Source: Acidobacteriota bacterium
Lineage (GTDB): Bacteria > Acidobacteriota > Terriglobia > Acidiferrales > UBA7541
Direction of reading: 5' to 3'
DNA length: 40,980 nucleotides
Assembly: GCA_003224145.1 (NCBI GenBank)
Contig: QHYN01000038.1
Coordinates: forward strand, 1 to 40,980
Under the pieces are notes generated by a model, which had not been told where the DNA came from, did not search any database, and saw only the letters and a program-made list of their open reading frames with translations. Below are positions 1-2,398 of the stretch, piece after piece. Position 1 is the stretch's first letter, and each line of letters opens with the position of its first letter. The translations under genes were made by a program, and so were the position numbers.

Positions 1-2
1 AG

Positions 3-356
3 ATCTCTCGCTACTTTCAAATCCGAAAGAAGTGGGATAACCACGAGTATGTGGTCCCGGTGACTGAAGACCTCGAGTTCTTGAACATAGCCCGGCAACG
101 GTTTCGTGGGGATTGCTTCGACAGCCTGTACCACGGATGGCGTTCTGGTGAACTCGGCGAGCAGGCAATGCGGGCTGAGTTCTCACGGCTCAGCCCTGAA
201 AGAAGCGTTTTCTTTGAGAGCTACCTAGTGAGAAGTCATCGTCGTCCGTTCGATCTCGAGAGGAAGATCGGTGAACGGTCCGTGAAAGACATAGATCACC
301 ACTCCGTTCACCATTCCGTTCACCTTCTGTGTGAACGGAAGTTGTTGGTAGCGTAG
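3..356 (+). CDS. 3' end of an unidentified gene (partial)
   Basis: The frame is open from the left edge of the window to a TAG at 354-356. An in-frame GTG at 51 is available, but the codons before it (reading ISRYFQIRKKWDNHEY) look like ordinary coding sequence, so the true start probably lies outside. The visible 117 residues are mixed charged and aromatic, with no transmembrane segment and no motif I recognise. The last 40 codons run through the CCGTTCAC repeat cluster, so the C-terminus (DIDHHSVHHSVHLL) is itself repetitive. It lies in the integrative-element segment ending at the tRNA at 2398, so an accessory or conjugation-related role is possible. I assign no function. Confidence 0.45.
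   Translation: MSRYFQIRKKWDNHEYVVPVTEDLEFLNIARQRFRGDCFDSLYHGWRSGELGEQAMRAEFSRLSPERSVFFESYLVRSHRRPFDLERKIGERSVKDIDHHSVHHSVHLLCERKLLVA
271..338. repeat. Cluster of four CCGTTCAC/GTGAACGG octamers
   Basis: The octamer occurs as GTGAACGG at 271-278 and 331-338 and as CCGTTCAC at 304-311 and 316-323. The two forward copies are 12 bp apart. Copies 316-323 and 331-338 can pair as an 8-bp hairpin with a 7-nt loop. No T-run follows, so a simple intrinsic terminator is unlikely. The arrangement would suit a protein-binding site within a mobile element; this is inference. Confidence 0.5.
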
Positions 357-407
357 AGGTTGCGCATGGAGCGACATTCAGTTTGGACATGGGCAAAACA
401 CCGGAAT

Positions 408-474
408 GGGCTGGAGCGACCCCACTTTTGGGAGCCTTTGGCTGCCCAAAAGAATCGTGGGGTCGCTCCAGCCC
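408..474. repeat. 67-nt perfect-arm palindromic element
   Basis: Arms GGGCTGGAGCGACCCCAC (408-425) and its exact reverse complement (457-474) flank an inner imperfect stem: TTTTGGG (426-432) pairs CCCAAAA (445-451), and AGCC (433-436) pairs GGCT (440-443). The whole unit can fold into one long hairpin with a 3-nt loop. It sits in the 197-bp gap between the partial gene and the small gene at 554. It resembles a REP or MITE-like dispersed palindrome, or a factor-independent 3'-end hairpin without a U-tract. Confidence 0.7.
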
Positions 475-553
475 TGCAAACAGGGAAAGGCTCTGTTTGC
501 GAAGTGTTTCGCCCGCGTCCACTTAAGAGAAAGAAAGGAAGTGGAGGAAACAT

Positions 554-799
554 ATGTCGATCGTCAACAAACCGCCGCAACATGTGAAGCGCGAGTACCA
601 GTTGGAAGAGCCTGTCGCTCTAGTGGTCGAGAAGTATGCCACGTTTATCGACAGCACCCAAGATCACGTCGTCAATTCGGCGCTGAAGATGCTGTTGTGG
701 AAGGACAAGCACTTCATGAATTGGAGAAAGCAGCAACAGCAGGCTGCACGCAAAGAAGTCCTCATCACCGGCACGCAAAGGTCACAAGCAAGAGCATGA
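554..799 (+). CDS. Small ribbon-helix-helix-like protein (81 aa)
   Basis: The ATG at 554 is preceded by a strong GGAGG at 543-547, which fixes the start. The product begins MSIVNKPPQHVKREYQL. A central stretch (EEPVALVVEKYATFIDST, then VVNSALKMLL) reads as a beta strand followed by two helices, like a CopG/MetJ-type DNA-binding dimer; the basic tail is rich in Gln and Arg. The stop overlaps the next ATG (ATGA at 796-799), so the two genes are translationally coupled. In mobile elements, small proteins of this kind often act as relaxosome accessory proteins or autoregulators. The fold assignment comes from the pattern alone, and the partner-gene interpretation is tentative. Confidence 0.6.
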   Translation: MSIVNKPPQHVKREYQLEEPVALVVEKYATFIDSTQDHVVNSALKMLLWKDKHFMNWRKQQQQAARKEVLITGTQRSQARA

Positions 800-1029
800 T
801 GCAGAGAATCCTCAACTCGAAGAATCTCGTCGCATTCGTCTTGGCGGCGGCCACGGGTATGACCCTCTATTTTCGTCTGCCCTTTCCTGAGGGCAATATC
901 TTTCTGCGGGTCATGGCTCTGCGGTCGCCGTCTGGATTTGAGGTCCTGAGGTACTCATACACTTTATTTTTGTTCTCGACCCCGTACATTGGCAGTGAGA
1001 ACCGACGGAGGAGTCACACTAAGTTCTAA
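796..1029 (+). pseudogene. Truncated membrane-protein N-terminus, possibly of a T4SS coupling protein
   Basis: This frame opens with ATGATG overlapping the preceding TGA and gives 77 residues. It has two hydrophobic stretches (NLVAFVLAAATGMTLYF near residues 10-26 and YSYTLFLFSTPYIG near 54-67) and then runs into a short basic tail ending at TAA 1027-1029. Two N-terminal membrane spans soon after translation start, coupled to a small DNA-binding protein, are the arrangement of VirD4/TraG-type coupling proteins, but nothing of the ATPase follows. The integrase begins about 100 bp later. I read it as a gene cut off near residue 68 by recombination at the element end; it could instead be a genuine small membrane protein. 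Confidence 0.4.
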
Positions 1030-1129
1030 TTACGTATTCTTTGCAGTTCTGACGGACCGCCACATGAGTCTGGATTTTGATAAACTGTCGCTGCTAAGGG
1101 CAATCGAGTCATCGGGCGAAAGGAACTCG

Positions 1130-2317
1130 ATGGCACGAAAGCGGTACCAGAAGGGACAGTTGTGGTTGGAGCAGGACGGTTGGCATGGGAGATGGCGTGA
1201 AGATGTAATCGTAAACGGTGTTCGGCGACGCCCGCGGCGGCACGGGATAATCGGGAGTCTCAAAGATTATCCAACAAAGCGCCTGGCGCAACGGGCTCTC
1301 GACGCACACATCGCACACGTCAATAAGATCAGCTACAGGCCAATGCCAACGGCCAAGTTCGCAGACTTCGCCCAGAACTGGGAATCGAAAGTGTTGAGTC
1401 AATATGGGGAGTCCACGGCAATTAACTATCGAACTCACATTTGGAAGCATCTTGTTCCGTTTTTTGGTGAGTACTCGATGAAGGATCTCAATCCCGAGAT
1501 GATTCAGCAATTCGTTTCCACGTCTGTGGTGAGCCCGAAGACCACTAAGAATATTTGCATCACACTCCAGAGCATGTGGACCACAGCAAGAGCGTGGGGC
1601 TACGTCGCTCACGACCTCATGGAAGGCGTCGTGCTCCCAGAAGTAAAGCGAGTGCAGCGATTCTTTCTCTCTCAAAGGGAAATCCAACTCATTCTTGCCA
1701 GGGCTCAGGAGCCGCACCGCACTTGGTACGGACTAGCTGCGGAAACCGGGCTCCGAGCTGGCGAGCTGTGCGGACTAACGGTCGATGACATAGACATAGA
1801 GCGTGGAATGCTTCAAGTGCGGCAGAGCGCGTGGCGCGGAAAACTAGGCGATCCGAAGACAGACGACTCTATTCGGGTTGTTGAGCTCTCGCCTCAAGCA
1901 TGTGCGCACTTAAAAGCGTTCTTGAAGTCTTGGCATCCGAACGAGCGTCGGCTCCTCTTCGCCACATGCAATGGAACGCCGTGGGATCAGAACCTGTTGC
2001 TCAAACGAAGGTTCAGACCATTGCTACGGTCACTAGGTATTCAGGTGCCCCGCGGCAATGGCTTCCACGCCTTCCGTCACGCGAATGCAACTCTGATGAG
2101 CAGTTTCGGTGCATCGCAGAAATTGCGACAGCAGAGACTCGGTCACGCGGACGGATCGCCGGTCACTGAGACTATCTATACTCACGTGATTAGCGAGGAT
2201 GGAAAGAGGATCGCGGCGCAACTTGGCAAGGCAGTTTGGGGAGTTTTGGACCCCAGTTGGACCCTGAAAGAAAACGGCTCAGGAGTGGAGTCTCCTAAGC
2301 CGTTGTATCTGAACTAG
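1130..2317 (+). CDS. Tyrosine recombinase/integrase of an integrative element
   Basis: This is a 395-aa site-specific recombinase with all six catalytic residues visible: R209 (TGLRAGEL), K243 (DPKTDD), H313 and R316 (HAFRH), H339 (LGHAD) and nucleophile Y350 (IYTHV). Residues 75-165 form the SAM-like core-binding domain, and the basic N-terminus (MARKRYQKGQ) suits an arm-type DNA-binding domain. I chose the ATG at 1130 because AAGGA lies 5 nt before it and the reading begins in the usual integrase manner. ATG 1064 and TTG 989 are in-frame alternatives. The stop is 4 bp from the CCA end of the tRNA at 2322, as expected for an integrase beside its own attachment site. The element must therefore extend leftwards out of the window. 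Confidence 0.93.
   Translation: MARKRYQKGQLWLEQDGWHGRWREDVIVNGVRRRPRRHGIIGSLKDYPTKRLAQRALDAHIAHVNKISYRPMPTAKFADFAQNWESKVLSQYGESTAINYRTHIWKHLVPFFGEYSMKDLNPEMIQQFVSTSVVSPKTTKNICITLQSMWTTARAWGYVAHDLMEGVVLPEVKRVQRFFLSQREIQLILARAQEPHRTWYGLAAETGLRAGELCGLTVDDIDIERGMLQVRQSAWRGKLGDPKTDDSIRVVELSPQACAHLKAFLKSWHPNERRLLFATCNGTPWDQNLLLKRRFRPLLRSLGIQVPRGNGFHAFRHANATLMSSFGASQKLRQQRLGHADGSPVTETIYTHVISEDGKRIAAQLGKAVWGVLDPSWTLKENGSGVESPKPLYLN
2276..2301. repeat. Inverted repeat at the 3' end of the integrase
   Basis: GGCTCAGGAG (2276-2285) and CTCCTAAGCC (2292-2301) form a 10-bp stem with one mismatch and a 6-nt loop inside the last codons of the integrase, 20 bp from the tRNA 3' end. It could end the integrase transcript or be a recombination-accessory site; no T-run follows. 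Confidence 0.4.
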
Positions 2318-2362
2318 AAATTGGTTGCGGGGGTCAGATTTGAACTGACGACCTTCGGGTTA
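2318..2362. other. Probable attachment site (tRNA-fMet 3' half)
   Basis: Tyrosine integrases commonly recombine into the 3' half of tRNA genes and rebuild it with element DNA. Here the integrase stop (2317) directly abuts the 3' end of the tRNA, which points towards the element. The att core should be the T-arm/acceptor part, with a second direct copy at the far end outside the window. The boundaries given are approximate. Confidence 0.5.
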
Positions 2363-2398
2363 TGAGCCCGACGAGCTACCAGGCTGCTCCACCCCGCA
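2322..2398 (-). tRNA. Initiator tRNA-fMet (CAU anticodon)
   Basis: Read on the minus strand, the cloverleaf begins TGCGGGGTGGAGCAG at 2398. The anticodon stem-loop CGGGCTCATAACCCG carries CAT with three consecutive G:C pairs, the hallmark of the initiator. The T-arm loop is GTTCAAATC, and the end is CCCCGCA-ACCA with the CCA encoded at 2322-2324. The terminal 1:72 position can form a weak U:A pair rather than the usual C:A mismatch, still consistent with initiator function. The total length of 77 nt is standard. The gene is intact despite the integrase next to its 3' end. Confidence 0.95.

Follow-up and report, generated by a model that had tools for sequence, protein, structure and literature searches.

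The window analysed here, which is the entire contig C31 (40,980 bp) of an acidobacterial genome of 4.79 Mb in 359 contigs (G000), very probably holds the integrase-proximal end of an integrative element that has entered the initiator tRNA gene (tRNA-fMet), with the far end of the same element probably lying on a second contig, C20. The features concerned are as follows.

1130..2317, forward strand: tyrosine integrase gene, 395 amino acids (aa) counted from the ATG at 1130.
2322..2398, reverse strand: tRNA-fMet gene, called tRNA-Met(CAT) by ARAGORN, with CCA encoded at 2322-2324; the only complete copy found in the genome.
2322..2366, no strand: attachment core, the tRNA 3' half from CCA to the anticodon loop, 45 bp repeated exactly at C20:6302-6346.
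2360..2366, no strand: TTATGAG (anticodon loop), probable 7-bp overlap region with presumed cleavage points.

The open reading frame (ORF) of the integrase matches Phage_integrase (3.9e-19) and Phage_int_SAM_3 in Pfam and an integrase family in PHROG (1.1e-59), and R, K, HxxR, H, and Y segments, which we take to be the catalytic residues, follow in that order between codons 206 and 352, so that the intact integrase with an R-K-H-R-H-Y set described in the initial annotation of this DNA is borne out. Similarity to the integrase of a related genome, G013, already begins at 1064, and the true start of the gene may lie upstream of 1130. The stop codon TAG (2315-2317) ends 4 bp short of the encoded CCA, with the 3' end of the tRNA facing the integrase, as the same annotation had noted. 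The tRNA gene scores 66.3 bits with the Rfam tRNA model, and we read it as being of the initiator type from its anticodon stem, with three G-C pairs at the base, its A11:U24 pair, and its sole top pair U1:A72.

A search of the genome with window positions 1900-2500 returned two other matches, both on contig C20, where ARAGORN finds no tRNAs. The first (C20:6302-6346) reproduces the last 45 bases of the tRNA exactly and in the same orientation, a repeat that we judge to be far beyond chance, and is the only tRNA-fMet fragment found in the genome; the second (C20:6427-6451) is a 25-bp repeat of sequence from the integrase end. The initial annotation had placed the element body outside the window to the left and had proposed a second copy of the tRNA 3' end there; the repeat does exist elsewhere, but it is on C20, and since the window is the whole contig the body cannot continue leftward on the same scaffold. 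Among 20 aligned 3'-half fragments (two shorter pieces were left out), 17 continue through TTATGAG, after which they become dissimilar within a few bases, with weak similarity persisting in some, and the remaining three are altered before that point. Because most copies diverge just after TTATGAG, this heptamer is the probable overlap region, and the core can be assigned to the anticodon class of tRNA attachment sites.

An empty site was reconstructed by joining, with a script, the 168-base left flank of the C20 core to the tRNA and promoter of the window. The product aligns without a break over the junction to 6 of the 30 tRNA-fMet loci compared (the 30 include the window's own), over 234-285 bp and at 85.6-89.1% identity, and the joined sequence represents the empty site. 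Comparison with relatives lacking the insertion had also been proposed at the outset; such uninterrupted sites are present, and some relatives lack the integrase-tRNA junction. In five of the six aligned relatives the left flank enters or follows a different integrase, 29-33% identical to that of the window, so the end of an older element, which has its own terminator-like hairpin, was seemingly the earlier neighbour of the tRNA, and insertion at this one tRNA-fMet site seems to have been serial. In a contrasting case, a gene on G011:C683 that is related to the C20 gene at 586-1242 stands some 85 bp from tRNA-fMet and is possibly the original chromosomal neighbour of the tRNA.

The likely course of insertion can be outlined from these junctions. 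The attP of the element carries a copy of the 3' half of the tRNA. The integrase would pair this attP with the anticodon stem-loop in the chromosomal gene, and strands would be exchanged within the 7-bp anticodon loop at the presumed cleavage points. The product would keep the chromosomal promoter and 5' half and would receive from the element its 3' half together with a new terminator, and the displaced former 3' half would form the far end at C20:6302-6346, if C20 is indeed the partner. In this process the integrase probably bridges the core and arm sites of the form TTTTGGACXC-N3-TTGGACXC on both sides, the integrase-side copy being the following feature.

2244..2264, forward strand: TTTTGGACCCCAGTTGGACCC, probable P-arm integrase site within the last integrase codons.

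This 21-mer occurs once in the integrase end and once, letter-identical, in the C20 arm (C20:6429-6449), and the motif, a direct repeat with the half-site TTGGACCC, is present in both element arms. The arms of the window and of C20 both read GGACCC/GGACCC; those of G013 read TTTTGGACGCTAGTTGGACGG on the integrase side and TTTTGGACGCTTGTTGGACGC on the other, with GGACGC as the first half-site in both. Among 36 genomes of the genus, which formed the genus comparison set, a loose pattern for the motif gave 28 hits in 18 genomes, with X the same in both halves in 28/28, and a reversed control pattern gave one. The P'-side motif lies 81-83 bp from the tRNA-fMet core in nine of ten co-occurrences. 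The arm motif was also observed 64-66 bp past complete genes for tRNA-Gly(CCC) (four loci) and tRNA-SeC (one locus) (L096, L106, L107, L111, and L116), and these loci are perhaps the ends of sister elements. Several integrases at other sites carry similar repeats in their last codons, and from its presence there and at other tRNAs the motif is apparently shared by a broader group of integrases.

Ten full-length integrase matches share at least 51% identity with the window protein, of which nine adjoin a complete tRNA-fMet and one (G081) adjoins a 3' fragment. Interruptions affect two of these genes, that of G112 by a stop and that of RYN_19 by a frame change. Five further partial remnants were found: one is at tRNA-fMet and one at a fragment, another lies about 6 kb from such a piece, and two have no fMet match in the locus. 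All 15 matches at 36-41% identity lie elsewhere than at tRNA-fMet: one is 8 bp from tRNA-Lys, and most of the others face a sequence that we take to be the 3' end of tmRNA, although ARAGORN reports no tmRNA at those loci. Six loci with integrases 29-33% identical also adjoin tRNA-fMet, which indicates that more than one integrase lineage has used the target; given these six loci and the 15 elsewhere, the idea that only close integrases use tRNA-fMet was dropped. In the wider family set of 89 genomes, 20 have an integrase match at E<=1e-60 and four, the window's genome included, have one of at least 85% identity. Named records with the integrase or pieces of it (n=9) are assigned to Acidobacteria in eight cases (five gp2, one gp1, and two without a group) and to Bryobacterales in one.

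The initial annotation had regarded the initiator tRNA as a less usual target, but it is a less exceptional one than that suggests. The metV gene of Escherichia coli codes for initiator tRNA. It is named among the most often targeted tRNA genes (PMC7545054). In the genus, 42 tRNA-fMet 3' fragments were counted in 23 of 36 genomes (query start at or before 16 and end at 41-69, by our own reading of the match table). When tRNA-Asp from the same genome served as the control query, 35 of 36 genomes matched, a figure that counts complete genes and other tRNAs as well, and the fMet limits left at least 51 3'-half fragments in 19 genomes; since tRNA-Asp fragments are at least as numerous, tRNA-fMet was rejected as a special hot spot. 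Numerous 3'-half and exact 5'-half fragments of tRNA-Asp were observed across the genus, one contig of the window's genome (G000:C234) included, with up to 25 matches of all kinds in one genome.

A whole element is present in G013, where an integrase 85% identical to that of the window adjoins tRNA-fMet and two 3' fragments lie on the same contig (C5:13445 and C5:1033). From core to core this element spans C5:13448-39361 (25.9 kb) on one contig, with the integrase between fragment and tRNA. Its nucleotidyltransferase matches SMODS and the PADLOC cyclase models and lies under the NCBIfam cut-offs, its patatin phospholipase lies above the NCBIfam CBASS_lipase cut-off, and a JAB-ThiF protein is encoded by a separate divergent gene; the predicted cargo thus includes a CBASS-like set, which has a TCAD9/APH-like neighbour (L036:2186-9557). 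Other genes encode two HNH proteins, a WYL protein, a dCTP-deaminase-like protein, an HU-like protein, and a coupling protein of 667 aa with TrwB and TraG-D domains, which is also found in G022. Pfam over the 26 listed element ORFs of at least 90 aa gave no relaxase, secretion, or phage structural family, and PHROGs, run on 10 of these ORFs, likewise yielded no structural family of phages. From the coupling protein and the defence cargo of G013, the family can be classed as a mobilisable-island type. In the window, upstream of the integrase, the corresponding region is reduced to the following features.

796..996, forward strand: remnant of the (type IV) coupling protein gene, the first 67 of 667 codons, 54% identical to G013.
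3..230, forward strand: remnant matching codons 247-322 (39% identity) of the 336-aa protein that precedes the G013 coupling protein.
408..474, no strand: imperfect palindrome of 67 bp between the two remnants.

The rest of the coupling protein gene was sought in the G000 assembly and gave no other match. With 67 of 667 codons left, the window copy lacks the coupling protein expected of an integrative conjugative element, and it could move by conjugation only with help. The palindrome recurs in the genome solely at C234:152-219, upstream of another integrase, and has relatives near the corresponding place in G013, G018, and G022; an origin of transfer or replication is possible. G018 has the same truncation of the coupling protein and is 95% identical to the window in DNA over 2.2 kb, and the core region gspD-smpB (2.9 kb) of G018 and G000 is 72% identical. 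The simplest reading would be that the truncated form passed between species, helped by other elements or by another route.

The reading of the window and C20 as two ends of one element has to be weighed against a less probable one, to which we still give some weight, in which C20 carries an older or sister element and the integrase end in the window is either an isolated remnant or belongs to a tandem array, and is not the partner of C20. Tandem or remnant cores are common in the genus, as the 42 fragments in 23/36 genomes attest, integrase tails stand beside orphan cores in G002 and G024, and the window copy has already lost its coupling protein. Several further observations weigh against the main reading. 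Two distal cores with a P' arm of the window family lie on the one G013 contig, and tandem or composite arrangements hence exist; C20 and C31 are unjoined in the assembly, and a search for overlap between the right end of C20 and the left end of C31 found none. The distal ends of G018 and G022 were not found with the core-plus-P' pattern (which matched 8 of 36 genomes), and neither an excision factor nor a relaxase nor a circular form came to light. As to the arms, the second half-site of the G013 integrase arm is GGACGG and not GGACGC, complete arm pairs number two, too few to prove co-variation between arms, and the peptide encoded by the motif (LDPxGP) could be conserved for the sake of the protein. 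The two ends are thus linked by what we infer, and C20 might instead carry the end of a sister element; however, the sole tRNA-fMet fragment found in G000 is on C20, and its arm motif equals that of the window letter for letter.

A prophage end, for which the PHROG integrase matches and the best phage records listed, with integrases about 25% identical, might speak, is very improbable and was rejected: viral contigs scanned for close relatives gave none, and the G013 element encodes a TrwB/TraG-type coupling protein and no phage structural family in the ORFs searched as above. The matches in phages and plasmids were all below 60% identity. That the integrase is a resident gene kept by descent beside tRNA-fMet, with no recent insertion, might be supposed from integrases down to 51% identity standing within a few bases of tRNA-fMet in several genera, but as a main explanation it is refuted by the uninterrupted site in six relatives and the patchy distribution of the integrase, and with the element end of G018 far closer to the window than the core region is, it is hardly credible.

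The inserted-element reading also bears on the expression signals of the tRNA, of which two lie in the window.

2304..2265, reverse strand: probable intrinsic terminator of tRNA-fMet (stem 2304-2273, T tract 2272-2265), antisense to the 3' codons of the integrase.
2404..2432, reverse strand: promoter-like TTGACG-17-TATAGT of tRNA-fMet, a pattern found in 22 of 29 genus loci, its own included.

The terminator-like hairpin begins 17 bases past the CCA and consists of a 13-bp stem, a 6-base loop, and a T tract, wholly within the integrase gene. The fold of the 60-nt stretch has z = -5.0, with 0/200 shuffles as stable, and a scan of 2150-2500 for terminator-like sites found this single one against 0.4 expected. 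In a survey from which loci with less than 90 bp of flank were dropped and in which identical flanks were merged, a hairpin with a T tract lies downstream of 34/34 distinct complete tRNA-fMet loci, at -15 kcal/mol or below in 33, and a hairpin of some strength accompanies 19 of 27 partial copies; random 90-mers reached -15 kcal/mol in 6 of 600 cases, under control limits that differed (fewer T, and a start within 25 nt and not 50). In nine hairpins of the family, whose rows are related, 98.3% of pairs are kept and nine two-sided changes occur, against at most two when slid and in 0/500 shuffles; the three pairs with a two-sided change and the ten further pair types are not beyond shuffles (55/500 and 470/500). 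The element seems to bring the tRNA its terminator as well as its 3' half. In a literature search that covered few subscription journals, with few queries on terminators or Acidobacteria and several queries giving only the best 6-20 records, no title or abstract opening concerned an element-supplied tRNA terminator or these acidobacterial elements.

At the other end of the tRNA gene, a shared replacement promoter (TTGTGTGTTATGAT) was observed at 6 of 29 genus loci (L005-L033). As a seventh locus, G018 was counted as having a replaced promoter, despite a 'native-like' label from a gapped alignment, because the conserved -35/-10 is missing. In G018 (C103:42000-60500, L148) gspG has a 5'-half fragment of the tRNA next to it, with the complete tRNA-fMet some 16 kb away, and no integrase was found among the ORFs of at least 150 aa in the stretch between. 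Similarly, 5'-half fragments in G029:C336 (L149) and G033:C129 (L153) are followed by GCG[CT]CAAACACCA..., with related sequence in G018 (L148), as if a second type of event displaced the 5' half of the tRNA. Taken jointly, the last ~24 codons of the integrase would encode protein, an arm-type site, and the antisense terminator of an essential tRNA, and tRNA-fMet in the genus would be a module that takes its terminator and 3' half, and sometimes its promoter and 5' half, from mobile DNA; we regard the chances of this joint reading as about even. If it is true, both halves of an essential tRNA gene in G018 would be of mobile origin.

The P1 and P2 arm sites of phage lambda also overlap int, and the overlap of arm site and integrase gene may, by analogy, not be new in kind. 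Core sites with repeated arm sites on both flanks are shared with attP of the lambda type (PMC4880445), whereas the arm motif here is another one, with tandem direct half-sites and a P-arm site within the last integrase codons. The Islander study (PMC4383910) reports that 2083 of 3919 islands cross over at the anticodon loop and that 125 tandem arrays of two or more exist. The islands of its anticodon subsite A share with the present case a tyrosine integrase, a displaced 3' fragment in the same orientation, a restored gene, and crossover in the anticodon loop, and tandem arrays are known in both; unlike those islands, the element here targets the sole initiator tRNA that was found in the genome of an acidobacterium, and its ends lie on separate contigs. 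Integrative and conjugative or mobilisable elements at tRNA genes, for example in Mesorhizobium and in some cases at tRNA-Met (PMC8627217), likewise have an integrase at a tRNA gene, and G013 keeps a VirD4/TraG-like coupling protein and cargo; in contrast to them, no relaxase or type IV secretion family was found in G013, and the coupling protein of the window is gutted. In tRNA-dependent lysogeny of mycobacteriophages (PMC10865867), a tyrosine integrase also enters a host tRNA gene, but in that case a phage tRNA takes the place of the host tRNA, which is left unrestored, whereas here the 45-bp homology rebuilds the tRNA.

The element is an ordinary one of a familiar kind with unusually clear anatomy. 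In an uncultured lineage, it shows an element entering a single essential tRNA gene harmlessly, rebuilding the 3' half of that gene and apparently bringing the terminator with it. With the arm motif as a simple DNA tag, ends of elements from this family can be located in fragmented genomes. Defence cargo, as in the CBASS-like set of G013, can be carried by the family.

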